Below, piece by piece: positions 35,683 to 60,700 of a stretch of 64,000 nt of DNA. Where the stretch lies: assembly GCA_009922615.1 (NCBI GenBank), contig RFVF01000023.1:1-64000 (forward strand), given 5' to 3'. A program made the translations under genes and the position numbers. Origin of the DNA: Pseudomonadota bacterium (lineage in GTDB: Bacteria; Verrucomicrobiota; Verrucomicrobiia; Limisphaerales; SXTU01). Below the pieces are notes generated by a model, which was given only the letters and a program-made list of their open reading frames with translations, did no database searches and was not told the origin of the DNA. Positions within the stretch are counted from its first letter, which is position 1. Each line of letters begins with the position of its first letter.

Positions 35683-37405
35683 TCAAGTCGTAGTCCGTGT
35701 GGCCGATGATTTTCACCTTGGCGAAGTTGCCGACCGGCAACTGTCCGCGCACATAGACGCGGCCATCAATGTCGGGCGCATCCGCCTCGCCACGGGCGAT
35801 CAAGTAACGGCCTTTGAGTTGCGCGAGATCTTCGTCGGTGCCCCGAATCAACCCATGCTCCCACGACGCGACCTTGGCTGCCTTGAGATCCTTGGCCGAA
35901 GCCCCGCCCTCAATCAGCACCTTGAGCGTTCGGCCGACAAAGCCTTCCGAGATGGCGCGGGCGACTTCGTGCTGCGCGGCCATCGCTTGCTCGCGGCGGC
36001 GTTGCTTCACCTTGTCGGTGAGCTGGCTTGCCATCTTGCCGGCGATGGTGCCTTCCTCCTGCGAGTAGGCGAAAATGCCGAGGCGCTCGAACTTCGTCTC
36101 GCTGATGAAGTCGAGGAGCGTGGCGAAGGCTGCCGCCGTCTCACCGGGGAAGCCGACGATGAACGTGGTGCGCAGCGCGATGCCCGGCACGCCGGCGCGG
36201 ATGTGGGCGATGAGGTCGCGGATGTATTGGCCGCTGGTCTCGCGGCGCATCCGGGCGAGCATGTCGTCGTGGATGTGCTGGAGTGGCATGTCCACGTAGC
36301 GCGCGACCTTGGGGCATTCGGCGATGGTGCGGATGAGTTCGTCGGTCCAGTGCGCGGGGTGCGTGTAGAGCAGGCGAATCCAGAAGTCGCCTTTGAGCGC
36401 GTTCAACTCGCGGAGCAGCGAGCAAAGCGTCGTGGCGTCGGCAGGAAGCGAGCTTGCGGCGGCGCGGAACTTCTCGGGCGAGGAAATGGCGCGGCTGTGG
36501 TTCGCGCGGAGGTCGAGCCCGTAGTAGGTCGAGTCCTGCGAAATCAGGTTCAGCTCCTTCACGCCGTCTTTGATGAGCCCCTTAGCCTCGGCGACGACAT
36601 CGGCCTGCGTGCGGCTGCGGTGGCTGCCGCGCATTCGGGGGATGATGCAGAAGCTGCACGGGTGGTTGCAGCCTTCGGCGATCTTCACGTAGGCGAAGTG
36701 GCGCGGGGTGAGGCGGAAGCGCGGCGTCTCGTAGTCCGGGATGTAGATGGGGCGAGTGGTGACGTCGAAGACGGGTTGGGAGTTGAGAGCTGAATGCTGA
36801 GAGGGCGGGGTCAGGACGGTCTTGGTTTTGCCGAAGGTGTCTTTGCCCCGGACGGATTCGTCATGGTCGTGCCCGGCGGGCTTGGCCTTGTCCAACTCGG
36901 CGATGGCTTGGGCCACTATGGACTTTGGGCTTTGGACTTTGGCCTGGGTTGGGTTTTGAACTTTCGCCTTCCGCCGCTCCATCGCCTCGCGGACGAGTTC
37001 TCCAACTTGCGCGACCTGGTCAATGCCCATGAACGCGTCCACTTCGGGCAGCAGCTTGGGCAGTTCCTCGCGGAAGCGCTGGCTGAGGCAGCCGGAAACG
37101 ATGAGTGCCTGGCCGCGGTGATTCGCTTCGCGCACGGCGGCGGAATCTAGGATGGCATCCACGCTCTCCTCCTGCGCGGCGTCGATGAAAGAGCAGGTGT
37201 TGACGATGACGGCGTCGGCAGCGGCGGGGTCGTTCGTGATTTCCGCGCCGGACTTGAGGAGCGAGCCAAGCATGATCTCGGCGTCTACGAGGTTCTTGGC
37301 GCAGCCGAGGGAGATCATGCCCACGCGCACGGGGCGGGCGGCAGGTCTGGATTTTTTACTGGTCACAGGAGGGCCGACGCTAGGCGAAGGACACCGCACC
37401 GGCAA
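35666..37405 (-). CDS. rimO: Ribosomal protein S12 methylthiotransferase RimO, enlarged by a repeat-coded linker
   Basis: 579 residues against about 430-450 usual for RimO, which adds a methylthio group to an Asp of ribosomal protein S12. MISLGCAKNLVDAE starts the UPF0004 domain with cluster cysteines near residues 35, 71 and 106. The radical-SAM core has CNHPCSFC (246-253). A C-terminal TRAM domain ends the protein (GRVYVRGQLPVGNFAKVKII). Between the first two domains, residues ~145-215 form a polar linker not expected in the family. It contains KVQNPTQAKVQSPKS and QHSALNSQP, coded by two arrays of 7-bp period. A second small insertion lies around 295-335. The start is uncertain: GTG at 37366 would remove 13 residues. 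It heads the rimO-pgsA-pgpA operon. Confidence 0.93.
   Translation of the reverse strand: MPVRCPSPSVGPPVTSKKSRPAARPVRVGMISLGCAKNLVDAEIMLGSLLKSGAEITNDPAAADAVIVNTCSFIDAAQEESVDAILDSAAVREANHRGQALIVSGCLSQRFREELPKLLPEVDAFMGIDQVAQVGELVREAMERRKAKVQNPTQAKVQSPKSIVAQAIAELDKAKPAGHDHDESVRGKDTFGKTKTVLTPPSQHSALNSQPVFDVTTRPIYIPDYETPRFRLTPRHFAYVKIAEGCNHPCSFCIIPRMRGSHRSRTQADVVAEAKGLIKDGVKELNLISQDSTYYGLDLRANHSRAISSPEKFRAAASSLPADATTLCSLLRELNALKGDFWIRLLYTHPAHWTDELIRTIAECPKVARYVDMPLQHIHDDMLARMRRETSGQYIRDLIAHIRAGVPGIALRTTFIVGFPGETAAAFATLLDFISETKFERLGIFAYSQEEGTIAGKMASQLTDKVKQRRREQAMAAQHEVARAISEGFVGRTLKVLIEGGASAKDLKAAKVASWEHGLIRGTDEDLAQLKGRYLIARGEADAPDIDGRVYVRGQLPVGNFAKVKIIGHTDYDLIAEPI
36776..36803. repeat. Period-7 array inside rimO (first arm)
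   Basis: Four heptamers in direct tandem: TTGGGAG, TTGAGAG, CTGAATG, CTGAGAG. On the coding (minus) strand this gives a Ser/Gln/Asn-rich linker (QHSALNSQP) just before the radical-SAM domain. Confidence 0.8.
36919..36946. repeat. Period-7 array inside rimO (second arm)
   Basis: Four heptamers: TGGACTT, TGGGCTT, TGGACTT, TGGCCTG, followed by a degenerate continuation (GGTTGGG, TTTTGAA). Read on the coding strand it gives KVQSPKS-like sequence. It is about 115 bp from the other array in the same gene. Confidence 0.82.
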
Positions 37406-37554
37406 TCAGGGAATGTGACGGCCAAACAGATCTGCTGCGGCAACATTTTGCCAAGCCGCGCGATCTCGGCACGACAGTTGCGTTATGGGATACTGTCGGC
37501 CTGCGTGCCGATTTGTGCGGTGATGGCGGAAAATACTGATTAAGATTTGCCCGC

Positions 37555-39018
37555 GTGAACGAAACAAGACAGGCCATGTTGCTGCAAGGCTACCAACCGG
37601 AAAATTTCTTCGATGAGATGCTGGAGGCACCGGGGGCGGCTCGGCCTCACTACCGCAAGTTTCGCCAGCACTTCGCCGCGCTTTCACCCGAGGAACTGGA
37701 GCACAAACGCCGTTCGTTGGATGTGGCGTTTCTGAGGCAGGGCATCACCTTCAACGTCTATGGTGACTCGGCGGGCACGGAGAAGATTTTCCCCTTCGAC
37801 CTGCTGCCGCGCATCATCCCGGCGAAGGAGTGGGATTACCTCGAACGCGGCCTGACGCAGCGCATCACGGCGCTGAACCTCTTCCTCCACGACATCTACC
37901 ACGAGCAGCGCATCCTCAAGGACGGCGTCATCCCGCCGCACTACGTTCTATCGGGAAAACATTTCCGGCGCGAGTTCGCGGGGTTCAACGTGCCCAAGGA
38001 CATTTACATCCACGTCTGCGGCACGGACCTCATCCGCGATAGCTCGGGGCAATGGCTGGTGCTGGAGGACAACGGGCGTTGTCCCAGCGGCGTGAGCTAC
38101 GTGCTGGAGAACCGCCGCGCGATGAAGCGGTCGTTCCCCGGCATGTTCGAGGACATCGGCGTGCGGCCGGTGGAGGATTACCCGCGTGAGCTGCTGCGGA
38201 TGCTCAACCACATTGCTCCCGCCGGCGTGGCGGACCCGACGGTGGTGCTGCTGACGCCGGGCGCTTACAACTCGGCTTACTTCGAGCACACCTATCTCGC
38301 GCGGCAGATGGGCATTGAAATCGTCGAAGGCCGCGACCTCGTGGTGCGTGACGCGCGCGTCTTCATGCGCACGACCAAGGGCCTGCAGCCAGTGCACGTC
38401 ATCTACCGGCGCATTGATGACGACTTCATAGACCCGACGGTTTTCCGGCGCGACTCAATGCTCGGTGTGCCTGGTCTCGTGCGGGCCTACCGCGCCGGCA
38501 ATGTCAGCCTCGCCAACTCCATTGGCACTGGCATCGCCGACGACAAGGTGATGTATTACTTCGTGCCGCGGATGATTAAGTATTACCTCGATCAGGAGCC
38601 CATCATCCCGAACGTCGAGACCTACCTCGCCAGTGAGGAGGCGGACAAGAAACACATTCTCGAAAACCTCAACAAGCTCGTCGTGAAGGCCGCGAACGAA
38701 TCCGGCGGCTACGGGATGCTCATGGGCCCCAAAGCCTCGAAGGACGAAATTGAATCCTTCCGCAAAGCCATCGAAGCCGACCCGCGCAACTACATCGCGC
38801 AGCCGATGATTTCGCTCTCCCGCCACCCGACGCAGGTGGACGGCAGCGCTTTCGAGGGCCGGCACATTGACCTGCGGCCCTACATCATCTATGGCGAGAA
38901 GATTGTCATCGTCCCCGGCGGCCTCACGCGCGTAGCGCTGCGGAAAGGCTCGCTCGTCGTCAACTCATCACAGGGCGGCGGCAGCAAGGACACGTGGGTG
39001 CTATATGGAGACGAGTGA
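37555..39018 (+). CDS. Circularly permuted ATP-grasp protein (peptide-ligase type)
   Basis: 487 residues from the GTG at 37555. The protein belongs to the circularly permuted ATP-grasp group (DUF404/DUF407 type). Visible blocks are [84 protein letters not shown], then [15 protein letters not shown] and a closing [13 protein letters not shown]-grasp enzymes join a carboxylate to an amine or thiol with ATP. For this subgroup an amide or peptide ligase activity has been predicted from gene context, not shown. It is the first gene of the island. The alpha-E gene follows 89 bp later with an inverted period-7 repeat between them. The same domain occurs again, fused to alpha-E, at 44288-46840. Confidence 0.9.
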
Positions 39019-39021
39019 AGA

Positions 39022-39101
39022 AGTAATTAGTGATCAGTCATTAGTCATGCACTCCACCCGCCACGCGCCGCACAGCCAGCTAATCGCTAATTACTAATCA
39101 C
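39022..39101. repeat. Inverted pair of period-7 arrays between ATP-grasp and alpha-E genes
   Basis: Left arm 39022-39049: AGTAATT, AGTGATC, AGTCATT, AGTCATG. Right arm 39081-39101: TAATCGC, TAATTAC, TAATCAC. The right arm is close to the reverse complement of the left, leaving a unique GC-rich spacer of about 31 bp. It occupies nearly the whole gap between the two genes. In RNA it could fold into a hairpin, but it lies inside what should be one operon. Confidence 0.85.
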
Positions 39102-39107
39102 TTTTCC

Positions 39108-40148
39108 ATGCTCTCCCGCGTCGCCAACTGCCTCTACTGGATGGCTCGTTACATCGAGCGCGCCGAGAACATCGCGCGCATCGTAGACGTGAACCTCCAG
39201 CTCCTCCTCGACTTCCGCACGCTCAACGATCAGCGCCTAGCGGACCATTGGATGCCCATCGTCCAGAGCACCGGTGACGAGGAGGCATTCCTCCAGCTCT
39301 ATAAGAAAGCCACCGGCAAGAACGTCACCGAGTTCCTCGTTTTCCAGATGGAGAACCCTAACTCGCTCGTCGCCTCCATCTGCCAGGCGCGCGAGAACGC
39401 CCGCATGGTGCGCGACCAAATCACCAGCGAGCTGTGGGAGGAACTCAACCGCCTCTACCTCTTCGTCCGTTCACCGCAAGCGCGCCAGACCTGGAAGGAA
39501 AGCCCGACGGAATTCTTCCAGCAGGTCAAAGCGTCGTCGCTCATCCTCATCGGCCTCAGCCGCGCCACGGCCATTCGCAACGAAGGCTGGAACTTCAGCG
39601 AGGCCGGCAAGTTCATCGAGCGCGCGGACAAGACCTCGCGCATCCTCGACCTCCGCTACCAGACCTTGCCGGAGAAGGGCGCGCCCACGTCCGTCAGCCA
39701 GACCGAGGCGCTCGAATGGTCTGCCATCCTGCGCTCGTGCAGCGCGTGGGACGCCTACAAATCCATCCACAGCGCCGAGGTGCATCCGGTGCTCGTGGCC
39801 GAGTTCCTCCTGCTCAACGAGGATTTTCCGCGCTCCGCCCGCTTCTGCGTGAAGGAGCTGAACCTCTCGCTCCGGCGCATCTCCGGCGTGCCGAGCGGTC
39901 GCTTCTCCAACGATGCCGAGAAGCTCGCCGGCCGCCTCGAAGCCGAGCTTCAGTTCAGCACCGTGGACGACATCTTTGCCCAAGGCCTGCACCTCTACCT
40001 TGACCAGTTCCAGCTCAAGCTCAACGCCATCGGCGACGCGCTCTTCAACGCCTACTTCTTCCAATCCATCGCCAGCATGGACGAGCAGATGCTCGTGCAG
40101 CAGGAAGAGCAGCAGCAGCAGGGGAAGTGTTCAGTGTTCAGTAATTAG
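39108..40148 (+). CDS. Alpha-E domain protein (DUF403)
   Basis: 346 residues. The start MLSRVANCLYWMARYIERAENIARI is the canonical opening of alpha-E proteins, which are almost wholly helical and nearly always sit beside circularly permuted ATP-grasp genes. Further family signs are ICQARENARMVRDQITSELW and LFVRSPQARQTW. No catalytic motif is known; it is thought to work as a partner of the ATP-grasp enzyme. Its last codons lie inside a 7-bp-period array (40126-40146), which supplies the tail CSVFSN and the stop codon. This tail was probably added by the repeat. The gene follows the ATP-grasp gene on the same strand. Confidence 0.9.
   Translation: MLSRVANCLYWMARYIERAENIARIVDVNLQLLLDFRTLNDQRLADHWMPIVQSTGDEEAFLQLYKKATGKNVTEFLVFQMENPNSLVASICQARENARMVRDQITSELWEELNRLYLFVRSPQARQTWKESPTEFFQQVKASSLILIGLSRATAIRNEGWNFSEAGKFIERADKTSRILDLRYQTLPEKGAPTSVSQTEALEWSAILRSCSAWDAYKSIHSAEVHPVLVAEFLLLNEDFPRSARFCVKELNLSLRRISGVPSGRFSNDAEKLAGRLEAELQFSTVDDIFAQGLHLYLDQFQLKLNAIGDALFNAYFFQSIASMDEQMLVQQEEQQQQGKCSVFSN
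40126..40146. repeat. Period-7 array at the 3' end of the alpha-E gene
   Basis: Three heptamers, AGTGTTC, AGTGTTC, AGTAATT. The array overlaps the alpha-E stop codon and lies upstream of the unrecognised gene at 40173. It is inverted relative to the array at 40698-40725: CAGTGTTCAGT here is the reverse complement of ACTGAACACTG there. Confidence 0.82.
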
Positions 40149-40172
40149 GGGTAGGCGGCTTCGCACATCACC

Positions 40173-40658
40173 ATGGCATTCATCCTATCAGCGCAGAGAG
40201 AGCCTGAGACGATAGTGACAGCTTTCGCACAATATCGCGCGTATGTCGCCGGCAACGCTGCGAGGTTCCCCCGAGGTGCTTATGCGCTCGCCGCATCTGA
40301 GTGGTATTTCGACCCACGCGACCACCGTTGCCCACACGATGCTTGGCTGGAGAGCGTCACAATTGCAGAGCCTGCGCCTGTAGAGCGGAGCGAGCAGCGC
40401 GTTACGGCGATTCGAGTTCGGTTGTTGGGGGCTTACCACGACGGCTTCATCGAGTTGTTTTACTCGCGGGTGATTCGATACTCGTTGAGCAGTCCATCGT
40501 CTGCGCGCGGTTTGGGTGACTGGCTCTACGATGAGTTTCGCGTTGCTACGGGCGGCCATCTGATTCACGAGATTGAGTGGGCTGGCTTTCCTAGTGACGA
40601 GGGTTCGCGATGGGTTATCGAGGCATCGGACGTAGAGTTTCAATGGATTCCACGATGA
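40173..40658 (+). CDS. Unrecognised small protein, apparent insert in the ATP-grasp/transglutaminase island
   Basis: 161 residues, no family recognised. The protein is aromatic-rich and soluble-looking, with an N-terminal helix and then strand-like stretches. Eye-catching words are ASEWYFDPRDHRCPHDAWLE, LLGAYHDGFIELFY, WLYDEFR and HEIEWAG. No signal peptide or membrane segment is present. His, Asp and Cys in DPRDHRCPHD could bind metal, which is only a suggestion. Its base composition and codon use look less GC-rich than the genes on both sides. It is bracketed by inverted period-7 arrays (40126-40146 and 40698-40725) and separates two genes that normally form one cluster. Together this suggests a gene inserted between repeats. 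Confidence 0.65.
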   Translation: MAFILSAQREPETIVTAFAQYRAYVAGNAARFPRGAYALAASEWYFDPRDHRCPHDAWLESVTIAEPAPVERSEQRVTAIRVRLLGAYHDGFIELFYSRVIRYSLSSPSSARGLGDWLYDEFRVATGGHLIHEIEWAGFPSDEGSRWVIEASDVEFQWIPR

Positions 40659-40697
40659 CGCTGCCTAATTTGTGTCGCCAACTACCACCAGTGCCTC

Positions 40698-40725
40698 ACT
40701 GAATACTGAAGACTGAACACTGGTT
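40698..40725. repeat. Period-7 array downstream of the inserted gene
   Basis: Four heptamers, ACTGAAT, ACTGAAG, ACTGAAC, ACTGGTT, ending 10 bp before the transglutaminase-DUF2126 start codon. It is inverted relative to the array at 40126-40146 and so closes the bracket around 40173-40658. Confidence 0.85.
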
Positions 40726-40735
40726 GCTCTCCCCC

Positions 40736-43700
40736 ATGTCCATCCACATCGCCCTCCACCACCGGACGCACTACGCTTACGACCGCCTCGTCACGCTCGG
40801 TCCGCAAATCGTCCGCCTGCGCCCGGCACCGCATTGCCGGACGCGCATCCTGAGCTACTCGCTGCGCGTCACGCCTGAGAAGCACTTCATCAACTGGCAG
40901 CAGGACCCGCAGTCCAACTACCTCGCCCGCCTCGTCTTCCCGGAGCCGACGCGCGAGTTCTGCGTCGAGGTGGACCTCGTGGCCGAGATGTCGGTGCTGA
41001 ACCCGTTCGACTTCTTCCTCGAGCCGCAGGCGGAGAATTTCCCGTTTCACTACGACCGCACGCTCGACCACGAGCTGGAGCCGTTTCAACTCAAGTGCCC
41101 GCTCTCGCCCAAGTTTCAGGCCTACCTCGCCTCGGTAACGCGCGACGCGCTGGGCGAGAACATTACGTTCCTGAACCGCCCCCACGCGCCGGTGCCACAC
41201 TCGGAAGTCGCCGAGGATGTCCACGCGCACGGCCACATGCCCGAGGTCGGCCAGCTTCACCCGGAGAAGGAGAAGGACACGCGTCCGCGCACGATTGATT
41301 TCCTCGTCGCCTTCAACCAGCGGCTGTGGAAGGACATCAAGTATCTCATCCGCCTGGAGCCGGGCGTGCAGACGCCGGAGCAGACTTTGACAACCCTCAG
41401 CGGCTCGTGCCGCGACTCCGCGTGCCTGCTGGTGCAGCTCTTCCGTCACTGCGGACTCGCGGCGCGCTTCGTCAGCGGCTACCTGATTCAGCTCAAGCCG
41501 GACGTGAAGTCGCTCGACGGCCCCAGCGGCGCGGAACAGGACTTCACCGACCTGCACGCGTGGTGCGAAGTCTATCTCCCCGGCGCGGGCTGGATTGGCC
41601 TCGACCCGACTAGCGGGCTGCTCGCGGGCGAAGGCCATATCCCACTCGCCGCCACGCCTGACCCTTCGAGTGCCGCGCCCATCAGCGGCGGCGTGGACGA
41701 GTGCAAGTGCGAGTTCAAGGTGGACATGAAGGTCACGCGCATCCACGAGTCGCCGCGCGTCACGAAGCCTTACACCGAGGAGCAGTGGAAGGAGATTGAG
41801 CGCCTCGGCCACGCCGTGGACGCCGATCTCGTGAAACACGACGTGCGGCTCACGATGGGCGGCGAGCCAACGTTTGTGAGCATTGATGACATAGACGGCG
41901 CGGAGTGGAACATCGCCGCGCTCGGTCCGACGAAGCGCCCGCTCGCGGACGAGCTCATCCGCCGCCTACAGAAGCGCTTCGCGCCCGGCGCGCTGCTGCA
42001 TTACGGCCAAGGCAAGGCGTATCCCGGCGAGTCGTTACCGCGCTGGGCCTTCGCCTGCTACTGGCGCAAGGACGGCCATCCTGTTTGGGAAAATCCCGCG
42101 CTCATTGCCGACGAGAAAACCGCCTACGGCCACACCACGGACCACTCCGCGCGCTTCATCGCCGCGCTGGCTGACCGCATCCAAGCGGACCCGCAGTGGA
42201 TCATGCCCGGCTACGAAGACCCGTTCTATCACCTGTGGAAAGAGCGCCGCCTGCCCGCGAATGTGGACCCGCACAAGGCGAACTTGAAGGACGAGGAAGA
42301 ACGCGCGCGCCTCGCGAAGGTGCTGGAGCGCGGGTTGGACCGCGTCGTTGGCCACGCGCTGCCCGTGCAACGCGCGTGGCGCAACTGCTTCCCGGTATGG
42401 GCCAGCGGGCCGTGGTTTCTGCGCGCGGAAAAGCTTTTTCTGTTCCCCGGCGATTCGCCGATGGGCTTCCGCCTGCCGCTCGATTCGCTCCCGTGGGTGA
42501 GCGAGTCGGACTATCCCTACCTCAACTCACTCGACCCGACCGCGCCGCGTCCGCCGCTGCCGGAGCGCGCGGAGTTCCGCCAGCGTTACCTGCAAGTCAG
42601 CACGCCCGCGCGCAAAAAAGCCGCCGCGCTCCGGCGTCGCGGCCAGACCGAGGAAGAAGCGCGCAAGGCCGAGTTGCTCGACGACCCGACGCGCGAGCCG
42701 GCTCGCGGCGAATCCGCCGCGTGGATTATCCGCACCGCGCTCTGCGTCGAGCCGCGCGGCGGACGGCTGCACGTCTTCATGCCGCCGGTGGCGACGCTGG
42801 AAGATTACTTGGAACTCGTCGCCGCCGTGGAGGACACCGCTGCGCAGTTGAACACGCCGGTCGTCATCGAGGGCTACACGCCGCCGCATGACCCGCGCCT
42901 GAATGTGCTCAAGGTCACGCCCGATCCCGGCGTCATCGAGGTCAACATGCACCCGACCGCGACGTGGGACGAGATGGTCAAGCAGACCACGACGCTCTAC
43001 GAGGAGGCGCGGCAAACGCGGCTCGGCACGGAGAAGTTCATGCTCGACGGCCGCCACACCGGCACCGGCGGCGGCAACCACATCGTCATCGGCGGCGCGA
43101 CGCCATCGGACTCGCCGCTGCTGCGCCGGCCTGACTTGCTCAAGAGCCTCATCGCCTACTGGCAGAATCACCCGTCGCTGTCGTTCCTCTTCAGCAGCCT
43201 GTCCATCGGCCCGACGAGCCAAAGCCCGCGCATTGACGAGGCGCGCAACGACTCGCTCTACGAGTTGGAAGTCGCCTTCAAGCAAATCAAGGACTTCGCG
43301 CCCGTGCCGCCGTGGATGACCGACCGGCTCTTCCGCAACCTGCTCATTGACGCCACCGGCAACACGCACCGCGCCGAGTTCTGCATCGACAAGCTCTACT
43401 CGCCCGACAGCAGCAGCGGGCGGCTCGGCTTGCTGGAGATGCGCGCGTTCGAGATGCCGCCGCACGCGGAGATGAGCCTCGCACAGCAGCTTCTCCTGCG
43501 CACGTTGGTCGCGAAGTTTTGGCAGCAGCCCTACAACGCGAAACTCGTGCGCTGGGGCACGCAGATTCACGACCGCTGGATGCTGCCGCACTTCGTCTGG
43601 TCGGACTTGGAGGATGTGGTCGCCGACTTGAAGGACGCGGGCTACGCGATGAAGGCCGAGTGGTTTGCGCCGCACTTCGAGTTCCGCTTTCCGCAATTTG

Positions 43701-44227: not shown

Positions 44228-44287
44228 TCAAGTTCTGCTCTCCGCGCTCGCCTCCTCGGCGCGACTTCGCTACAACCAACCTACGCA

Positions 44288-47715: not shown

Positions 47716-47733
47716 GGCGCGCCGCACCTCCTC

Positions 47734-48791: not shown

Positions 48792-48800
48792 AGGAGCAGT

Positions 48801-49433: not shown

Positions 49434-49566
49434 CGGACGCGCAAACGGTGCGGCAGGGCAGGGGAGCTGGCAAGCGTGCAGGCGGCACGGTCGAATAGTG
49501 CCGAGGTCCGCGCGTCCGGGATTGGTGTCTCGTAACCGTGATCGTCAACTGAATCGAATCTGCACC

Positions 49567-50583: not shown

Positions 50584-50637
50584 CCATTGGTGGTGATCGC
50601 CAAGGCTCGCGAACAATCCTCAAGATCAAACTGCGGC

Positions 50638-51177: not shown

Positions 51178-51302
51178 GGGCGCGGAGGGTAAGGCGATTA
51201 CCCCAGCGCGCAAGCGTGCCGCGGGGGCGGCGGAAAAATCGTCGACTGCGGACTGGCCACGGACGCAAGAGTTGCTACGGTCCCGGGGGTCCGATTACGA
51301 AC

Positions 51303-51548: not shown

Positions 51549-51551
51549 CTT

Positions 51552-52487: not shown

Positions 52488-52561
52488 CCGCGACTTCGCG
52501 TTTCCTGCAATAGTTCCAGTCGCTGGGTTGCCTGCCCGATTTATGTCACCTGCTGGGCAGT

Positions 52562-53584
52562 TCAATTCCCGTTCGGGTCGCGCAGCATGCGCCGGCCGGA
52601 GGGATTGAAGTAGGGGCGGGTGTCGTAGGAGGGCTTCGGATCGTTCGGTGAAGTGGGGTTGGCCGGATCGCGCAGATCGAAGAGCGCCTTGGTGGTATTG
52701 CGCGCCTTGGTCTCGTAATCCGAGGCGCTGTCGTAGTCGGAGCGCGGATTGTTCGGTGCCTCCACCGCATCCCAGAATGAGGCGGAACGCAGGCGTCGCA
52801 CGGGCTTGGCGGCTGCGACGGAAGCGGCGGTGGTGTCGCGGATACCGCTTTCGTTGGTCCGCACGAAGAGGCGCATCATGCCGGGGTCATTCGCGATCAG
52901 GGGGTTCTTCAACAACTCGGCGGGCGCGGTGAAAAGCAGCGGCGGGCCGGAATAATCATATTGCGGCCGCTCGTGGTTTGGTTCCTCGATGTGCGGTTTT
53001 TGCGGGCGCAACCAAGCATACCCATCAAGCGTCAGTGAGGGCGGACGCGTGCCGGGATGGATGATGTCGGGCGGCTGGTTTTGCGCATATTGGCGCAACG
53101 TGCGGTCGAACTTGGGCTTGATGATGTCGGGATCCTGCACTGGCGGGAAATAACCTACTCGCCGGTTAAGTCTTTCATTCGCCTCGCGGGTCAGCCCGGG
53201 TTGCAGCCGCCGCATCATCGCGGCATCGTCCGGCTTGGCCACCATTCCCTTGGTCGTCAAGCCGGGCAACAACGGCCAGGTCGCAACGGTCATGGATTCC
53301 AGCGTGGCGGGGAAGGCCCGGTTGTCGATGGTGCTGCGTTCTGCCCGGGGCGTCTTGTCGAGGTGCCCGAGCGCGGACAAGCCCTGATAAATGGTGCCCG
53401 CGTTGAACGTCAGCGGGTCTTCAAGGGCGATGCGTGAGCCGGTTTCGTTGATGATGCGCAGCGACACGCTATCGGGCGCAAAGCAGACATGCACGGCTGT
53501 GCTCGCGAGGAGCAGCGTCATCGTGAACTTGGCCAGCCGGGGGCGCACGCTGGTCTTGGTGCCAGAACTTGGCCCGGTTGGCAA
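52562..53584 (-). CDS. Unrecognised exported protein, Asp/Asn/Pro-rich
   Basis: 340 residues; an internal ATG at 53521 directly before LLLASTAVHVCFA is the more probable start, giving a normal signal sequence and 319 residues. The rest is hydrophilic, with many prolines, and lacks membrane segments. The C-terminal ~70 residues are low-complexity (NNPRSDYDSASDYETK, DPANPTSPNDPKPSYDTRP). I recognise no domain. The upstream type I phosphodiesterase gene ends 18 bp before, on the same strand, so an operon is plausible. Confidence 0.6.
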   Translation of the reverse strand: MPTGPSSGTKTSVRPRLAKFTMTLLLASTAVHVCFAPDSVSLRIINETGSRIALEDPLTFNAGTIYQGLSALGHLDKTPRAERSTIDNRAFPATLESMTVATWPLLPGLTTKGMVAKPDDAAMMRRLQPGLTREANERLNRRVGYFPPVQDPDIIKPKFDRTLRQYAQNQPPDIIHPGTRPPSLTLDGYAWLRPQKPHIEEPNHERPQYDYSGPPLLFTAPAELLKNPLIANDPGMMRLFVRTNESGIRDTTAASVAAAKPVRRLRSASFWDAVEAPNNPRSDYDSASDYETKARNTTKALFDLRDPANPTSPNDPKPSYDTRPYFNPSGRRMLRDPNGN

Positions 53585-53601
53585 CGCTTATCCCGGCCCG
53601 T

Positions 53602-54972
53602 TCACCGTGCGGATGGTTGTGCCAGCGCCTCGGTCAGCACGCGGCCCTCGACGTTCTCCATCTTCAAACCGAGCAATGCGGCCACTGTCGGGGCCACGTC
53701 CACGTTGCGGATGTCGCCGAGTTGTGCGCCGCGCTTCACGCCGTGGCCCCACGCGACGAACATCCCGTTCAGTTTCGCGTCGCTCGCGAGGTAGCCGTGA
53801 TGGCCGGGATAAACCTCTGGCGTCAAGTCCGTCACCGCCTCGTCGCCGGTGGGCTGATGCGTGAACGCGTAGCCGTCCTTCGCCACGATGAAGAGGTCGG
53901 CCATCTGGTCGTTCTGCGCCGGCGTGGGCAGGCCGAGCGACGCGTATTCCGCCGGCTCGTAGATGCGCTCGACGCCTTCGAGCTTGCCGAGCAAGTCCTT
54001 CAACTTAGGCGTGAGCGTCGCGAGCTTCGCCTTGTCCGGCACGTAGATCATCGCCGAGCCGCCCAGCGTGTTGGCCACGGCGTCGCACGTCGCGACCGTC
54101 GGGCCTTGCACGCGGAGGAGGCCGGCCTGCCGCAGCGCGACGTTCGGGCGGATGATGCGCTTGGCCGACTTGAAGCCGTGGTCCGTGGTGATGACGAACG
54201 TGGCCTTGTCCGCCAAGCCCGCCGCCCGCACCGCGTCGAACAACTCGCGCAGACACGTGTCCGCGAAGGCAAAGGCCGACATGCTCGCCCAGGTGCCGGG
54301 GCCGGAGCGGTGATTGATGGCGTCGGTGTTGAGCAGGTGGAAGAGCAGGAGGTTCGGCTTGTGCTGCTTCACGATGTGGACACCGGCGCGAGTCCAGAAG
54401 ATATCGCGCCACGGCGGGTTGCGCTGGTTGAACTCCTTCAACTCCGTCTCGTTGATGAGTCCGGCGGCGAGCATCTCACGCTCGATGGGATTCGCCGCGT
54501 TGGGCCGCTCGCCGAACTCGAAGTGGAACGTCCCGGCGTTGGTCGTGGGAATCCAGTCCACGTGCGCGGTTTTGAGGCCAGCCTTGAAGGCGACGTCATA
54601 CACCGTCGGCACGCGGATGAGTTCGGCCTTGTCCTTCCACGGTTCGAGCTTGAGCGGCTCGTTCGGCCCCTGGCGCACCATCATGCCGTTGAAGAGCACG
54701 CCGTGCCGCGCGGGCGTGACGCCGGTGACGAGCGTGGTGTGGTTGGGCCAAGTGATGGCGGGGTTGGCGATAGTCATCGTCTTGGCCACCGCACCTTCGT
54801 GCGCGAGCTTTTGGAGGAAGGGCATCGGCAACGCCGGGTCGTTCCAAATCCACGCGGGGAAGCCGTCAATCGTCACCAGCACGACGAGGCGGTCCTTGGC
54901 GGGGACTGTGGCAGCGCAGGCAGGGGCAAGTGAGGCCAGCAGGACGAGGAGGAGAAAAGCGCGATGCAACAT
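53602..54972 (-). CDS. Secreted type I phosphodiesterase / nucleotide pyrophosphatase
   Basis: 456 residues, alkaline-phosphatase superfamily. A signal peptide (FLLLVLLASLAPACA) starts it. Metal and active-site blocks: VLVTIDGFPAWIW with the first metal Asp; TWPNHTTLVTGVTPARHGVL, which contains the catalytic Thr/Ser position; DAINHRSGPG; FVITTDHGFKSAKR; and PGHHGYLASD. The family hydrolyses phosphodiester or pyrophosphate bonds of nucleotides or lipid headgroups outside the cytoplasm. The presence of FNGMMVRQGPNEPLKLEPW before the cap region is usual for the bacterial group. The natural substrate is unknown. Confidence 0.9.
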   Translation of the reverse strand: MLHRAFLLLVLLASLAPACAATVPAKDRLVVLVTIDGFPAWIWNDPALPMPFLQKLAHEGAVAKTMTIANPAITWPNHTTLVTGVTPARHGVLFNGMMVRQGPNEPLKLEPWKDKAELIRVPTVYDVAFKAGLKTAHVDWIPTTNAGTFHFEFGERPNAANPIEREMLAAGLINETELKEFNQRNPPWRDIFWTRAGVHIVKQHKPNLLLFHLLNTDAINHRSGPGTWASMSAFAFADTCLRELFDAVRAAGLADKATFVITTDHGFKSAKRIIRPNVALRQAGLLRVQGPTVATCDAVANTLGGSAMIYVPDKAKLATLTPKLKDLLGKLEGVERIYEPAEYASLGLPTPAQNDQMADLFIVAKDGYAFTHQPTGDEAVTDLTPEVYPGHHGYLASDAKLNGMFVAWGHGVKRGAQLGDIRNVDVAPTVAALLGLKMENVEGRVLTEALAQPSAR

Positions 54973-55076
54973 GCGGGAGTTTTGTCGCAGCGGAACAAGT
55001 CGGCGGCAAGTCTCAAGTCCCGTATTTAAAGGTCTAAAGCAGGCTGCCGATCGCTATAGGTGTGACGGAAAGTCTC
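54973..55076. other. Spacer, nothing recognised
   Basis: This is the start of a gap of about 625 bp without a credible gene. Before the 21-bp array I see only unstructured sequence and, at about 55056-55076, a weak extra repeat unit. Confidence 0.4.
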
Positions 55077-55391
55077 ACTTTGGCGGAGCGGAACGATACT
55101 TTCGGATCCAAAAGCACGGTTTTTCCCCGTCGGAATAGGGCTTTCGGTTCGGAAAATGGGGTTCTGGCCAAGCTGAATGGCACTTTCAGACCTGAAAGCG
55201 CGGTTTTGGCTGACCGGAGTGGGGCTTTCCGTCCTGAAAGGGGGCATTTGATCGAGCGGATGGGGGTCTTCGGGACTGTCTGAGGGCATCCGGCCGACAG
55301 AAAGGGGGTCTTCGGGGTTGTTTTATGGCATTCGGCCGGCCGGATAGGGGTTTTCGGGACTGTCGGATGGCATTTTCCTAGCTGGATATGC
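55077..55391. repeat. Tandem array of fifteen degenerate 21-bp units
   Basis: Fifteen consecutive 21-bp units run without a gap. Most start with a pyrimidine-rich TTTCGG-like stretch and end GGAANRGG-like, for example ACTTTCGGATCC at 55098, GCTTTCGGTTCGG at 55140, ACTTTCAGACCTG at 55182 and GCTTTCCGTCCTG at 55224. From 55245 units alternate CATT- and GTYTTCGG-type starts, so the higher-order period is 42 bp. Because 21 is a multiple of three, both strands can read long frames here with 7-residue peptide repeats; I do not treat those as genes. There is no Cas gene and no conserved repeat with unique spacers, so it is not CRISPR. Confidence 0.85.
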
Positions 55392-55465
55392 CCCGACAGG
55401 ATTGCAGCGAGGCATCTCGTGAGCAGCAGGCGGGGCGTCGGAATGGGAAGGCACCGGTATTGCCC

Positions 55466-55513
55466 AGCCCTTTAGGGCTTGGTGGCTGCCCCACCCAGCC
55501 ATAAATGGCTGGG
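55466..55513. repeat. Two adjacent hairpins
   Basis: AGCCC-TTTA-GGGCT (55466-55479) is followed by CCCAGCCAT-AA-ATGGCTGGG (55494-55513), a 9-bp stem. They lie about 85 bp past the end of the metalloprotease gene, which runs on the minus strand. They could serve as a transcript end for it or belong to an interspersed repeat family; there is no strong T tract. Confidence 0.55.
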
Positions 55514-55598
55514 CTAGTATCAAAGCAGTTTGTTGTGCTTTCCTTGGGCTTTCCCCGCTGGCTTAGCAGACGTTTCGCGTGGGTGGTTGGCCCCTCAC

Positions 55599-56774
55599 TC
55601 ACCGGGCGCGCGGGCGGGTGACGTGGATGACGCGTTGCAAGGAAGGTTCCGTGGCCGTGCCGGAGCTGAGGGCGGCGGGTTTCAGGCCGGGAACCACGGG
55701 CGGGTTCTTGACGAGGCGAAAGTATTTTTGCGAGCCGGTGCTCGCGGCGGTCGCCGGGGTGGTGCCGCCGCTGGCGGCTGTGGTCCACGTGCCACCACCG
55801 AAGAGCGTGCGTTCTTGCAGCACGAAGCCGGTAAAGTTGCTCGGCCACGAGAGAGTTACTTGATTCACGCCGCTGGCGGCAATGTTCAGCGTGGGCCGGG
55901 TGCTGGCCAGTGTGTAGCCGATCACGTCGAGGATCGCGAGTTCGTTGGGGCCTTCGTCTTGAAACACGCCCGGCCCGGCGAAGGCGTCCTGCACCTGCGC
56001 CGCCGGGGTGGTGCCCGGCGGGCTCCAGGTGCCGGTCTTGCTCCAGAAGTCGCCGTAGTCGCCGTCGGGCTGCTGGTTGAAGCGCGCGAGGAGGTTCGTC
56101 CCGTCGATGGAAAAATAGGCGTCGTCGCCGTTGGTGGTCCAAGTGCGGACGAGATTGGTGGTGTAACGGAACAAATCAATGGGGGCGATGGGGCCGGTCG
56201 GGCCGGTGCCCGGGCCAAGGTTCGAGGAGGAGCCGAGGACTTCGTTGATTTCGTGCTCGGCCGTGGCGATAAGGTCGTATTTGTTCGGGTCAATGCTGGA
56301 CCGGGTGAAGTTCATGATCGTCGTGTTCAACGAGATCGTGGAGTCAAACCCATCGGACCCGAAATTGGCGGTGAGTCCCAGGAGGCGGCCGAGCGGCAGC
56401 GTCATGTGAATCTGGCTGTTGTTGGCCAACGGGTCGGTGGTGGTAGCGGGGGTCTTGCTGAGGGCCAGGGCGTCGTTGCGGCTCGTTGCCCGAGCCTGTA
56501 AGGCCGAAAGATAGTCGGAGTAGGGCCAGTTGTTAAACCAGGTCGAGCTCTGTCCCAGACCGATGTTGGCATCGCTGACGAAGAGAATTTTCACCGTCAG
56601 GTCGTCGGTGAGGTTGGACTGTAGGTTTTGAATGGCGACGTTGATCGCGTTGGTAATGGCCACGGCCTGGGCGGCGTTGGTGATGGAGCCATCGTAGGTG
56701 GGAACGATGGTGAGGGCCGAGCCTGAAGTAGTCCCGGCTAGAATCAGCACGAGTGAAAGGAGGTGAGATTTCAT
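55599..56774 (-). CDS. Secreted metalloprotease-like protein (NF038122-like)
   Basis: 391 residues from the ATG at 56774, preferred because MKSHLLSLVLILAGTTSGSA is a good signal peptide; an ATG at 56783 and another at 56837 are longer options. The middle carries AEHEINEVLGSSS, which fits the zinc-binding HExxxEVLG variant of a secreted metalloprotease family, and ELAILDVIGYTL, which usually ends that domain. The C-terminal part is a verrucomicrobial domain (VTLSWPSNFTGFVLQE ... YFRL), of the same type as that ending the protein at 269-3532. About 30 more residues follow it. Protease activity is inferred. The third zinc ligand could not be fixed. Confidence 0.75.
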   Translation of the reverse strand: MKSHLLSLVLILAGTTSGSALTIVPTYDGSITNAAQAVAITNAINVAIQNLQSNLTDDLTVKILFVSDANIGLGQSSTWFNNWPYSDYLSALQARATSRNDALALSKTPATTTDPLANNSQIHMTLPLGRLLGLTANFGSDGFDSTISLNTTIMNFTRSSIDPNKYDLIATAEHEINEVLGSSSNLGPGTGPTGPIAPIDLFRYTTNLVRTWTTNGDDAYFSIDGTNLLARFNQQPDGDYGDFWSKTGTWSPPGTTPAAQVQDAFAGPGVFQDEGPNELAILDVIGYTLASTRPTLNIAASGVNQVTLSWPSNFTGFVLQERTLFGGGTWTTAASGGTTPATAASTGSQKYFRLVKNPPVVPGLKPAALSSGTATEPSLQRVIHVTRPRAR

Positions 56775-56843
56775 GGTTGTCATGGTGCAAGCCGTTTCAA
56801 CGCGCCCCAGCCTCGCAACCGGCCGTGTCGGGAACAAGGAAGA

Positions 56844-57584
56844 TTAGCGCGCGGCGCGCGGGCGGGGAGTGCGGCGCAGGCCGTTTTGAAACCACAGTTT
56901 CCACACCATCAGAAGCGCTTCCTTCACGATGCCCTTGGACATCTTCGAGTTCCCCTGGAAGCGGTCAGTGAAGATGATCGGCACCTCGGCGATGCGCATC
57001 CCCTGCCGCCAGACGCGGTGCGACATCTCAATCTGGAAGCTGTAGCCGTTGGACTGCACGGTATCGAGGCCGAGCGCTTGCAGCGTGGCGCGACGGAAGC
57101 ATTTGAAGCCGCCGGTCGGGTCGCTCAACGGCAGGCCGGTGATGACGCGCACATACTTCGCCGCGCCCAGCGAAAGCACGAGGCGATTGAGCGGCCAGTT
57201 GATGACGCGGATGCCGTTGCAGTAGCGCGAGCCGATGACGAGGTCGGCGGACTGCGCGGCGGCGAGGAACTTCGGGATGTCGTCCGGGTTGTGCGAGAAG
57301 TCGCCATCCATCTCCATGATGAACTCGTAGTCACGGTCGAGTGCCCATTTGAAGCCGGCGATGTAGGCGCGGCCCAAGCCGTTCTTCTCCGCGCGATGCA
57401 GGACGTGGATGGACGGGTGCTTCGCGGCGAGTTCGTCCGCCAGTTTGCCGGTGCCGTCGGGGGAATTGTCGTCCACCACGAGCAGGTCGATGGGCGTGGG
57501 CAATCCCAGGATGTGTGCGGCGAGCGGGGGAAGGTTCTCCCGCTCGTTGTAGGTCGGCACGATGACAAGGGCGCGCTGGCTCAT
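56844..57584 (-). CDS. Dolichol-phosphate mannosyltransferase-like family 2 glycosyltransferase
   Basis: 246 residues from the ATG at 57584, placed just before RALVIVPTYNERENLPPL, the usual N-terminus; frames starting further upstream cross a palindrome. Motifs: LVVDDNSPDGTGKLADEL for the nucleotide, MEMDGDFSHNPDDIPKFL with the DxD, and GSRYCNGIRV ... DPTGGFKCFRR. Family members move mannose or glucose from a nucleotide sugar to polyprenyl phosphate on the cytoplasmic side, providing a lipid-linked donor for surface glycans or protein glycosylation. There is no C-terminal membrane domain, as in the short DPM1 type. The gene lies between the metalloprotease and the cytochrome. Confidence 0.9.
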   Translation of the reverse strand: MSQRALVIVPTYNERENLPPLAAHILGLPTPIDLLVVDDNSPDGTGKLADELAAKHPSIHVLHRAEKNGLGRAYIAGFKWALDRDYEFIMEMDGDFSHNPDDIPKFLAAAQSADLVIGSRYCNGIRVINWPLNRLVLSLGAAKYVRVITGLPLSDPTGGFKCFRRATLQALGLDTVQSNGYSFQIEMSHRVWRQGMRIAEVPIIFTDRFQGNSKMSKGIVKEALLMVWKLWFQNGLRRTPRPRAAR

Positions 57585-57648
57585 GCTGCTTGGGCGGCAA
57601 GCGTCCGCGAAGCGGCGGGGCAACTCAAGCCGGGATTCCCTGTAGGCG

Positions 57649-57692
57649 CTGTAGCGGCGGTCTATGACGGCGGTCACAGACCTCTGCTACAG
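57649..57692. repeat. Imperfect palindrome (interspersed repeat element)
   Basis: CTGTAGCGGCGGTCT (57649-57663) pairs with AGACCTCTGCTACAG (57678-57692), 13 of 15 positions, and the inner bases (ATGAC / GTCAC) extend the stem. The left arm recurs at 63841-63860. It lies between the two divergent genes, glycosyltransferase and cytochrome. Confidence 0.75.
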
Positions 57693-57746
57693 AACCGCGC
57701 GCTTCCCAAGACGAATCTGGCGGCTCAGGCTGCGTCTGACACCGTG

Positions 57747-60700
57747 ATGCCCGACGTGAATCGCAGCTCCAAGCTCCAAGCCCCAAGCCCCCGAGAAGTT
57801 GCAACTCTCAAGCGCCAAGGTGCCTGCACGGTGGTCCGCTTGTTGTTTGGAGTTTGGTGTTTCTTTGGAGCTTGGAGCGTGGGCTATGGAGCTTCCGCAT
57901 CCGGCGAGTTCGACTTTTTCGAGCGTCGCATCCGGCCCGTGCTCACGCAGCATTGCTACGAGTGTCATAGCGCGACGAGCAAGTCGCTCAAGGCTGGCTT
58001 GCGCGTGGACACACGCGATGGGCTGCGTCTCGGTGGCAAGTCCGGCGAGCCGGCCGTCGTCCCCGGCGACGTGGAGAAAAGTCTTTTACTTAAAGCCATC
58101 CGCCACGCGAGCGCGGACTTGCAGATGCCGCCGAAGAAGCAGCTCTCGGCACAGCAAATCTCCGACATCGAGACGTGGATTCGCAGTGGCGCGCCGGATC
58201 CGAGGGATGAAGTTCAAGGTCCAAAGTCCAAAGTCCAAAGTCCAAAGTCTCACTGGGCGTTCGTGCCGCCGAAGGTCCAGCCGTTGCCGAAGGTGAAGGA
58301 CAAGGCTTGGCCGCAGTCGCCGGTGGACCACTTCATCCTGGCGAAGCTGGAGGCCAACGGATTGAAGCCCTCTCCGGCGGCTGACCCGCGCACCTTGATT
58401 CGTCGGATGACTTACGACCTCACCGGCCTGCCGCCGAGCGCGGAGGAGGTCGAGGCGTTTGCAAAGGCCTGCTCCAGCGGCAATCGGCAATCGGCAATCG
58501 GCAACCTAGTCGAGCGTCTCCTCGCCAGTCCGCACTACGGCGAGCGCTGGGCCCGGCACTGGCTGGACGTCGCGCGCTACGCGGACACCAAGGGCTACGT
58601 CTATGCGCGCGAGGAACGTTTTTTTGTCCACAGCCACGCCTACCGTGACTGGGTCGTCCGCGCGTTGAATAACGACATGCCCTACGACCGCTTCCTGCTG
58701 CTTCAGATTGCCGGAGATCAGCTAGTCGAAGGGTTCAAGGTTCAAGGTTCAAAGTCCAAAGTCGCCGAGGGCGCAACGAGCACCGCAGCCGACTCTCAAC
58801 TCTCAACTCTCAACTCTCAGCCGTCGCGCAGCGACCTCGCCGCCTTGGGCTTCCTCACGACCGGCCGCCGCTTCATCGGCGTGACGCACGAGATCATTGA
58901 CGACCGCATTGACGTGGTGACGCGCGGCACGATGGGCCTGACCGTGCAGTGCGCCCGCTGCCACGACCACAAATACGATCCTATTTCGACGGCCGATTAT
59001 TACTCGCTCTACGGCGTCTTCCAAAGCACCGCAGACGAAATGGTGCAGATCGAGTTCCCAGAAAAGTCCGATGCGCTGGCCGCCTTCGAGAAGGAATATC
59101 GCACGCGCCTCGACAAGCTGAACACCACGATGGCCACGCGCCGCGCCGAAACCGCCGCGCGCATCCGCGCCCGTGTGACGGACTACCTGCTCGCACAGTT
59201 CGAGCTGCACAAGTATCCCGAGGAAGGCTTCGACCAAATCCTCACCGACAAAGACCTCATCCCCGCGACTGTCCGCCGCTGGCAAGCGTATCTGGAGCAG
59301 GCGAAGAAACGTGGCGACCCGGTGTGGGCGTTGTGGCACGCCTACGCGAGCCGGCCGGAGAAGGCATTTGCCGCCGATGCCGCCCAACTCCCAGCCTCCA
59401 ACTCCCATCTCCAAGCCGCCTTCGCCTCTCCGCCGAAGTCCATGCGCGAAGTCGCCGAGCGCTATGGCAAGGTGTTGACCGCCGTCGAGCAGCAGTGGCA
59501 GGCCGCGCTGGCCGCCGCGAAGACGAACAACGCTCCGCCGCCTAGCTCGCTACCTGACCAAGAGGCTGAGGCGCTCCGACAAGTTCTCTACGCGGACACT
59601 TCGCCTGCCGTCGTGCCGGATGTTGGCATCGTGAACAACGAGCTGCTCTTCACCACGCGGGCCTGCGAAGAGCTGTGGAAGTTGCAGGGCGAAGTGGACC
59701 GCCATCTCATTCGCACCCCTGCTTCGCCAGCCCACGCGCTTATCGTCACCGACCGCGAGCCAAACGGAAACCCGCGCGTCTTCCTGCGCGGCGACCCGAA
59801 GCAGAAAGGTGTGGAAGTCCCGCGCCAATTTCTGCAAGTCGTCGCCGGTCCACAGCGCCAGCCCTTCACGCACGGCAGCGGTCGCCTCGAACTCGCCCGG
59901 GCCATTGCCAGCCCGGACAATCCGCTCACGGCGCGCGTGATGGTGAATCGCCTTTGGCTTCACCACTTCGGTGCAGGCCTGGTGAAAACACCGAGCGACT
60001 TCGGTCTTCGCGCCGAGATCCCGAGCCATCCCGAGCTGCTCGACTGGCTCGCGCGCCGGTTCGTGACCGAGGGATGGAGTTTGAAGGCGATGCACCGGCT
60101 GCTGCTGACCAGCGCTGCGTATCAGCAGGCTAGTGAGGTCGAGGGGCGCACCCGTCCGGCTCTCGCCGCTCGACCCTCGACCCTCGACCCGGACAACCGC
60201 CTGCTCTGGCGCGCGAACCGCCAGCGGCTCGATTTCGAGGAGCTGCGCGATTCCCTGCTCGTGGCGAGTGGTGAACTCGATCTCGCCGCCGGCGGCAAGC
60301 CCGTGGACATGTTCACCAGCAAACGCCGCAGCCTTTACGGCCTCGTGGACCGTCAGTATCTGCCCGGAGTTTTCCGCGTCTTCGATTTCGCCAATCCCGA
60401 CCTGCACATCCCCCAGCGGCACGAAACCACGGTGTCGCAGCAGGCGCTGTTCTTCCTCAATCACCCGTTTGTCGCGGCCCGGGGCAAGGCGCTCGCGTCG
60501 CGCGCGGATTTCAAGGCCCTCAGTTCGCCCGAGGAAAAGGTCCGCCTTCTCTATCGCGCGCTTTATCAGCGCGAGCCATCGCCCGCGCAAGCCGCCGCTG
60601 CCGTGCGCTTCATCGCAGACGCCGAGGCGAACCAGCCGCAAGCCCCGAAGCCGCCGCCAGAGAACCAATGGCGCTACGGCTACGGCGAGTTCGACGAGGT

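Follow-up and report, generated by a model that had tools for sequence, protein, structure and literature searches.

Why should a dozen short tandem arrays share a period of exactly 7 bp and not a sequence? The question is raised by the first 64,000 nt of contig RFVF01000023.1 (GenBank assembly GCA_009922615.1; hereafter the window), part of a 5.52-Mb Verrucomicrobiota genome in 331 contigs (G000; 92.6% complete) whose genus belongs to the Pedosphaerales/Limisphaerales and has ten other genomes (G001 to G010). The named relatives are metagenome-assembled genomes of Verrucomicrobia subdivision 3, Limisphaerales and Pedosphaera. Our answer, to which we give a probability of roughly 65%, is that many of the arrays are the arms of several families of short dispersed inverted repeats and that the unpaired ones are perhaps left-over or reworked arms. 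Heptamer repeats have long been catalogued in bacterial genomes without a settled mechanism, and here the congeners offer individual junctions both with and without an insert, which makes it possible to distinguish insertion from replacement and from drift.

Tandem Repeats Finder (TRF) reported 13 distinct period-7 places in the window, spanning 36915 to 60190, one of which is a GC run at 56847. The remaining 12, together with two arrays added by a degenerate lag-7 scan (36775-36800 and 39079-39102), bear out the original prediction of at least twelve arrays in 24 kb. Seven exact lag-7 runs of at least 10 matches occur in 36001-61000 against a mean of 0.03 over 30 dinucleotide shuffles, an excess over composition-matched shuffles that the same prediction had put forward as a check; no such run was found in 1-36000 or 61001-64000. 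Control lags 4 to 21 gave 0 to 2 runs each and the harmonic lag 14 gave five. The arrays form two clusters, at 36.8-40.7 kb and 57.8-60.2 kb, separated by an interval with merely two 7-match lag-7 runs and the GC run. As predicted, they lie both between genes, as in the stop-to-start gap at 39019-39106, and inside genes, as in the PSCyt gene described below. An assembly artefact is disfavored because separately assembled congeners carry arrays at the same sites. The claim that the units differ and the period is always 7 was correct for the period within the window, but a CAAAGTC-type unit is common to the arrays at 36915, 58210 and 58750, and because some congener arms at orthologous sites have, by eye, a period of 8, period 7 is dominant rather than exclusive.

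The signal extends well beyond the window. Sampling 400 kb of this genome (stretches of seven other contigs, taken away from the matches through which those contigs were known and hence not strictly random) yielded 18 lag-7 segments of score at least 12, or 45 per Mb against 2.9 per Mb for the control, which is the average over seven control lags. The enrichment expected in related verrucomicrobial genomes was also present, at 37 per Mb (control 5.3) over 299 kb from the first contigs of order members, in 20 stretches, and at 56 per Mb (control 2.9) over 80 named loci totaling 1.27 Mb. Twenty stretches from the phylum outside the order gave 17 against 2.4 per Mb, one genome supplying four of the five arrays. 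Lags 6 and 9 were raised as well in several samples, as coding sequence would predict. Units recur: 108 arrays, among them orthologous RimO arrays, fall into 70 unit families against 100.8 for letter-shuffled units, the largest having nine members against at most five. Outside the order but within the phylum, one locus (L275 in genome G118) has inverted AGTGGTT and AACCACT arrays and a long GTGGGAC array.

Many arrays face an inverted partner. Within 600 bp and at a score of at least 12, such a partner exists for 48 of 136 genus arrays where 12.8 are expected, and 21 have a direct partner by the same definition where 9.4 are expected; both expectations were derived from the flanks of other arrays, after arrays with units of fewer than three letters had been dropped. 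Among 56 neighboring array pairs no more than 700 bp apart, 17 are inverted-similar and five direct-similar, against inverted similarity in 4% of random pairs. Three such facing pairs, on which the original prediction had not remarked, lie in the window (39022/39079, 40126/40697 and 57765/57847). Predicted RNA folds were stable for 39019-39106 (z score -4.5) and 57760-57900 (z -3.7) as well as for the G005 and G004 versions of the gap at 40 kb (z -5.9 and -4.1), and weaker for the pair in the RimO-like gene (z -2.2).

Two dispersed families could be resolved. The AGTRATT family has nine matches in the genome besides the window copy, seven of them two-armed by eye and with differing loops. From 39 genus entries, some mutually orthologous and a few loosely alike, the consensus arm read by eye is GRGGGGAA-AGTGATT-AGTAATT-AGTGNTT-AGT, or in general form GRGGGGAA-(AGTNNTY)3, the outer GRGGGGAA and the unit order being common. 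A threefold AGTRATT pattern occurs in six of 387 genomes of the phylum, this one included; the reversed control is uninformative, the reversed unit being its own rotation. The AAGCTCC family has an arm of about 55 nt in which roughly four heptamers are separated from roughly three others by the 4-nt break AAAG, found in both arms. Twenty G005 stretches around arm matches gave 18 pairs, in a count that reports opposite-strand pairs only, with identical strand order in all 18 and loops of 29-191 nt. In the window, the arms at 57765-57817 and 57847-57895 follow the AAGCTCC consensus, break included, with scores of 24 and 35 against a maximum of 13 for 300 random stretches. Within each of the two families there is common descent, because arm ends or the internal break are conserved across dispersed copies.

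Copy numbers are uneven among species. Counted as match pieces rather than elements, and from a limited number of scored candidates, AAGCTCC reaches 105 in G005, 48 in G004, 25 in G000 and 2-13 in the other eight genomes, and AGTRATT reaches 43 in G007, 24 in G002 and 2-18 in the other eight genomes searched. The AAGCTCC element was matched in 28 of 116 genomes of the order, four of them within the genus. Loops are not shared between dispersed copies: 725 non-orthologous pairs of AGTRATT loops had a mean score of 6.84 against 6.40 for shuffled sequence, none reaching 14, while 16 pairs with orthologous flanks averaged 15.4, and the loops of 18 AAGCTCC elements gave four short mutual matches. 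G005 also has two other dispersed elements, each about 155 bp long and matched many times in the genus (L326:7706-7868 and L326:1770-1930); the former, of the GGGAGAGGG hairpin type, sits inside an AAGCTCC loop.

Within AGTRATT arms, adjacent units are equal in 0.128 of 156 pairs against 0.359 of 78 first-third pairs, a non-identity of neighbors that would fit the survival of less unstable copies, or selection. We rejected the idea that the two arms are kept complementary by pairing or arm-to-arm copying, as arm identity within elements is not consistently higher. In the 18 G005 AAGCTCC elements it is 0.771 against 0.815 between elements, part of this difference being an artefact of which arm was matched, and with arm roles kept 0.771 against 0.798 (fraction 0.0008); seven elements from the AAGCTCC match loci (one from G005, two representing the same G002 place) gave the opposite sign, 0.769 against 0.748. 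Facing AGTRATT units are equal in 19 of 117 cases against 69 of 234 non-facing ones (Fisher 0.009, permutation 0.023), with whole-arm identity not lower (0.771 against 0.758), which amounts to a weak avoidance of identical facing units.

Gene junctions that are filled in one species and empty in another suggest insertion. A 9.5-kb stretch of G005 was compared with its ten congeners, and its TGATG junction, an overlapping stop and start, is covered in eight species (G007, G008 and G009 not among them). The junction is empty in G000, G001, G003 and G010 and holds four differing inserts in G005, G004, G002 and G006, so that both kinds of orthologous locus that the original prediction had proposed to compare, with and without arrays, are found among congeners. 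All four inserts lie after the stop codon and before the downstream start (a would-be TTG in G004 and G006). The G005 insert of about 385 bp has AAGCTCC arms at its ends, the one case in which terminal inverted repeats are the insert ends, and another dispersed hairpin in its loop. By eye, the G004 insert has GAATTAC and AACTCCT repeats, that of G002 encloses other repeats between TGACCAA-type arms, and that of G006 has an AGTRATT right arm and a decayed left side. A second junction, an ATGA overlap, is filled in G005 and in G006, the latter insert having no heptamer arms by eye, and empty at eight matched loci of six other species. In G005, ATGA stands on both sides of the insert, which suggests a short target duplication because stop and start codons both survive around it. 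Stop-to-start positions between co-directional open reading frames (ORFs) were occupied by 10 of 19 AAGCTCC elements against 2 of 19 for a control shifted 40 nt, and a start codon with 80 open codons behind it lies no more than 14 nt away from 29 of 78 AGTRATT sides, against 15 of 78 at the control offset.

The same place often holds different units in different species. In the 11 genus genomes, 108 array clusters form 57 site groups, 22 of them in at least two species and 35 in one. Thirteen groups cover at least five species; eight of these have arrays in 10/10, 9/10, 8/10, 6/10, 6/9, 6/8, 4/5 and 4/5 species, and the other five have them in 2/9 species (one group) or in a single species (four groups). 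Among 136 orthologous array pairs from 11 groups (unequal array numbers dropped beforehand), 60 have unrelated units, with similarity below 4.5 of 7; the pairs are not independent events because some alleles, judged by flank identity, are mosaic between congeners. Unlike units at orthologous sites have a similarity of 3.45 against a null of 3.16, too small a difference to demonstrate gradual descent.

The gap at 40.1-40.7 kb has five versions in five species: AGTGTTC arms around a 161-aa ORF in the window, an AGTGTTC left arm beside another sequence in G007, an AGTAATT hairpin in G010, an AAGCTCC hairpin in G005 and a TTAGCGA/GCTAACA hairpin in G004. At 39.0 kb, AGTNATT units are common to the window, G007 and G010, with loops homologous by eye; the arms of G005 and G004 are of TTACG type and enclose different loops. 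In another gap, G010 and G007 share a loop and differ in the units of both arms (AGTGTTC against AGTAATT). It seems that two processes are at work, whole-element replacement and drift inside an element, because gaps differ either by whole elements or by the units around a shared loop.

ORFs make up 91% of the sampled sequence and hold 97 of 143 arrays, gaps thus being over-represented about 3.6-fold. Stops are under-represented in the sense reading of in-gene arrays, occurring in 7 of 97 against 37 of 97 in antisense, and the sense reading is the more hydrophilic one in 65 of 97; many of these arrays are mutually orthologous and the ORFs were called by length alone.

Taken as mobile elements, these repeats would consist of an arm of about 30-55 nt of degenerate tandem heptamers, an arbitrary loop, mostly of 16-110 nt and in some cases enclosing a small ORF or a further repeat, and a second arm of the same kind in inverted orientation. 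Copying would be a transposition-like insertion with short target duplication by some enzyme that reads the arm, and we lean toward heptamers as its iterated recognition units. Point mutations and slippage would afterwards make the units of an arm drift, and where the window has perfect arrays inside genes, these may be later local expansions. Much of the combination of different sequences and one period would then be explained, because several families insert or replace at the same tolerated places. The original prediction had argued for one mechanism that spreads heptamers and against descent of one element; no single element was found and heptamers do spread, but the members of one family share a common descent. 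If arms are copied and the interior is not, this would be an unusual form of mobility, and as the elements rewrite protein linkers and one putatively signal-peptide-like N-terminus in genus-wide genes they could be a source of new protein sequence.

Several observations weigh against this explanation. No inverted partner of score 12 exists for 88 of the 136 arrays, and at higher scores direct partners prevail, 10 against 8 inverted at a score of at least 20 (null about 2-3) and 4 against 0 at 24 (null 1-2), in part because an interrupted array resumes with the same orientation. Two window pairs gave no fold signal (58728-58822, z +0.5; 60140-60192, z -0.5). A scan of 72 hairpins of mixed families found a lag-7 agreement of 0.378 overall and 0.404 in relatives, but the 19 hairpins of the window's own genome alone showed no excess (0.302). 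Different sites share units in 4.9% of cases within a genome and in 3.8% between genomes. At 58211, the units changed without visible insertion, because the length stays at 158-162 nt in nine species with or without a lag-7 signal (the frame is open in the window), a constancy relevant also to phase-variable contingency repeats, in which gained or lost units shift the reading frame. A possible target duplication is visible at the ATGA junction alone, where the G005 insert has a full AAGCTCC right arm and just a remnant on its left. The sole other copy of the 161-aa ORF among 40 genomes, in G004, lies beside one weak score-7 stretch. Loops unrelated between copies are unlike those of ordinary miniature inverted-repeat transposable elements (MITEs), and no moving enzyme was identified, the Y1 transposase domain (Y1_Tnp) not being found in G000 and G001.

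Slippage during local replication, in which any heptamer is duplicated in place by a polymerase or repair step whose footprint is 7 nt (a hypothesis attributed to Mrazek 2007), would account for the dominance of lag 7 in the order samples, for the perfect in-gene arrays of the window and for the heptanucleotide excess reported for bacteria of many kinds. We nevertheless consider it unlikely, since it yields no inverted pairs and leaves without account the conserved arm ends and breaks at unrelated sites, the uneven numbers among species, the inserts at stop/start junctions for which congeners have empty counterparts and the recurrence of units beyond the letter-shuffled expectation. Opposite-strand heptamers might instead be selected as regulatory sites, binding a nucleoid protein or global regulator or acting in the mRNA as inter-cistronic hairpins or ribosome-binding regions. 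The location between stop and start codons, the folding of several copies, the avoidance of identity between adjacent AGTRATT units and published readings for Geobacter and Maribeggiatoa speak for such a function. It becomes distinctly unlikely in view of the TGATG junction, without insert in four of eight species and with unrelated inserts in the others, of the arrays inside genes and of the many orthologous array pairs with unrelated units.

The elements could also be REPIN-like, that is, moved by a RAYT (REP-associated tyrosine, Y1) transposase, REP standing for repetitive extragenic palindromic. Inverted doublets with a variable spacer, mostly extragenic, are what REPINs look like, and Y1_Tnp is present in 9 of 11 genomes searched. 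GGAG is an alternative to GTAG as the foot tetranucleotide of REP sequences, and neither foot is found at a fixed place in the two resolved families, although other hairpins of the same genomes have GTAG; given also that both families are present in G000, where no Y1_Tnp was found at 92.6% completeness, we regard this origin as very unlikely. Highly improbable, in our estimate, is a scheme in which the arms alone are made anew at each insertion by a telomerase-like enzyme with a short internal template; at gene junctions it would extend each 3' end of a staggered break with one and the same heptamer sequence, the ends being joined via filler DNA. If true, it would yield tandem heptamers, inverted arms that are similar and not identical, unshared loops and a target duplication, and different templates would give different families.

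Dispersed families of inverted heptamer elements, the explanation that we prefer, can be set beside known repeats. Heptamer short tandemly repeated repetitive (STRR) sequences are found in Nostoc, and cyanobacteria reportedly also have small dispersed repeats inside heptamer arrays and heptamer hairpins in the Nostoc tRNA-Leu intron. The original prediction knew of no named equivalent here, which proved too pessimistic, as heptanucleotide simple sequence repeats (SSRs), Geobacter 7- and 8-mers and TAACTGA and GGGAATC repeats are in print. Seven is a dominant SSR unit length, in excess in many bacteria (Mrazek 2007 as cited in PMC4679880 and PMC4692102), and the Helicobacter pylori unit GTGATTA cited in PMC4692102 shares its necklace with the AGTGATT found here. 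The present arrays resemble SSRs and STRRs as short tandem heptamers beyond chance in TRF and lag-7 tests, and differ from SSRs in that many of them form the arms of inverted elements whose ends are conserved and whose loops are unrelated.

One close likeness is to Geobacter metallireducens, for which PMC2700814 describes paired opposite-strand tandem repeats of classes 1-3 and a 49-copy four-heptamer element. These repeats share with our pairs the opposite-strand tandem 7- or 8-mers at variable distance; the four-heptamer element likewise occurs inside genes, and in the proBA gap a sister species has a different multicopy sequence, as at our sites (PMC2700814). In that account, which seems to offer no comparison with empty sites, they are interpreted as possible regulator-binding sites, the classes are few, the phylum is another one and the units (GTTGCTYN, TCTCCGTS, MTYCTGA) are mostly others, although AATTCAG-type units occur here and would fit MTYCTGA. 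The TAACTGA repeats of Maribeggiatoa, as reported in PMC4679880, are also few-unit heptamer arrays directly before start codons with a patchy taxonomic spread, some of them extending over the preceding gene's stop codon, but they comprise one heptamer in mostly direct orientation, whereas here there are many families, inverted pairs and many arrays in genes. REPINs (PMC3116915, PMC3733652) are described as hairpin-forming inverted doublets with a less conserved spacer, extragenic with some in ORFs and often touching stop codons, all of which applies here as well; an inverted doublet with a spacer is seen in both resolved families and in the 17 inverted-similar neighboring array pairs. Unlike REPINs, our elements have arms of iterated heptamers, loops unshared between non-orthologous copies and, in G000, no Y1 gene that was found, and by eye their feet are TGA-AAGCTCC or GRGGGGAA-AGT and not GTAG (PMC3733652). 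The terminal inverted repeats at the insertion ends, seen in one case, are MITE-like, but the interior is not shared. Tandem repeats of Borgs (PMC9879509) likewise lie in and between genes, arise independently and, when in frame, give disordered protein stretches; these are archaeal, extrachromosomal and direct, whereas ours are arms of inverted elements. Titles and abstract openings, with few subscription journals among them, yielded no description of heptamer arrays as arms of inserted inverted repeats in Verrucomicrobiota, and it is this arrangement that makes the elements new within a little-studied kind of bacterial repeat.

In the window, the first cluster is hosted by a RimO-like gene and by two gaps in a row of ATP-grasp, Alpha-E and transglutaminase-DUF2126 genes (Pfam). 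The RimO-like radical-SAM gene (35669-37405, minus strand; UPF0004, Radical_SAM and TRAM_2) has a linker with two arrays, and its frame is open in all nine full-length same-genus orthologs found. Read on the coding strand, array 1 (36775-36800; GTTGAGA type, from the degenerate lag-7 scan) gives the peptide SQHSALNSQ and array 2 (36915-36945; GACTTTG, from TRF and orthologs) gives KVQSPKS. Heptamers of other species differ at the place of array 2, and linker peptides of the orthologs, derived from differing heptamers, include KVQSPKS, NAQRSTP, RSQKPEA, SQLSTLN, TQHATRN and others. In four order members (L020, L024, L026 and L032), each RimO match has one in-frame stop. Four records titled Akkermansia muciniphila (L053, L056, L066 and L081) have RimO loci 69-73% identical to the Pedosphaerales query, and their titles look misassigned.

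A circularly permuted ATP-grasp gene (37555-39018, plus strand; Pfam) is followed by the AGTRATT element identified by family comparison, which spans the whole stop-to-start gap at 39019-39106 with a left arm AGTAATT AGTGATC AGTCATT AGTCAT (39022-39048, plus; TRF) and a right arm GCTAATC GCTAATT ACTAATC ACT (39079-39102, plus; degenerate scan). The Alpha-E domain gene (39108-40148, plus; Pfam and ORF) is flanked by both intergenic elements, its 3' end overlapping the AGTGTTC left arm of the second (40126-40142, plus), an exact run with an inverted similarity of 6.3 of 7 to the right arm ACTGAAT ACTGAAG ACTGAAC (40697-40722, plus; TRF). The 161-aa ORF between these arms (40173-40658, plus) has no Pfam match and is absent from the corresponding place in G004, G005 and G010; G007 has a different stretch there, possibly an ORF, beside the same AGTGTTC left arm (L159, 2862-3614). 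That the arms are recombination sites carrying this ORF as a cassette was rejected, the other copy having no adjoining heptamer array, and the ORF is left as an insertion into the loop.

The second cluster is hosted by a single PSCyt1/PSCyt2/PSD1 gene (57831-61274, plus; Pfam, ORFs and translation) with six array places and one arm. Its frame is open from 56763, and the GTG start at 57831 is a proposal by eye. The left arm of the AAGCTCC element (57765-57817, plus; arm-consensus alignment) shows the internal break as GAGAAG, and the right arm (57847-57895, plus; aligned likewise) codes for the hydrophobic N-terminus FGVWCFFGAWSVGYGA, which appears signal-peptide-like. The array places that follow are all on the plus strand, the first five in frame, and were found by TRF and orthologs. 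A CAAAGTC array (58210-58249) is replaced in other species by AGCGGTC or AAAGTTC at nearly equal total length, and at the site of a CGGCAAT array (58478-58504) four congeners have, by eye, a longer period-8 hairpin. A GGTTCAA/CAAAGTC array (58732-58763; also an exact run) and an ACTCTCA array (58792-58819) form the left and right of a pair that is not complementary in the window. Further on lie a degenerate CCCAACT array (59383-59412) and, within 60140-60192, a CTCGACC array (60169-60190) accompanied by a small inverted remnant. At this last site congeners have ATTCCGA, a period-8 hairpin or a hairpin of the ACTGAAC or GTCGAGA/CTCGACC type.

Other hairpin families in the same genomes have arm periods of 8, 9 or 11-12 by eye. 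Further dispersed hairpin families (L119, L179, L180, L188, L189, L191 and others) include GTAG-footed palindromes, ACACAGAG octamer arms and ACACAGATGAA and ACGCAAAGA arms. Rfam and tRNA searches gave no matches. The part of the window at 1-36000, without an exact lag-7 run of at least 8 matches, contains a plus-strand ORF of 7683 aa at 3529-26580, and imperfect tandem repeats lie at 55242-55374 (period 42, 3.2 copies) and 63911-64000 (period 21/41).

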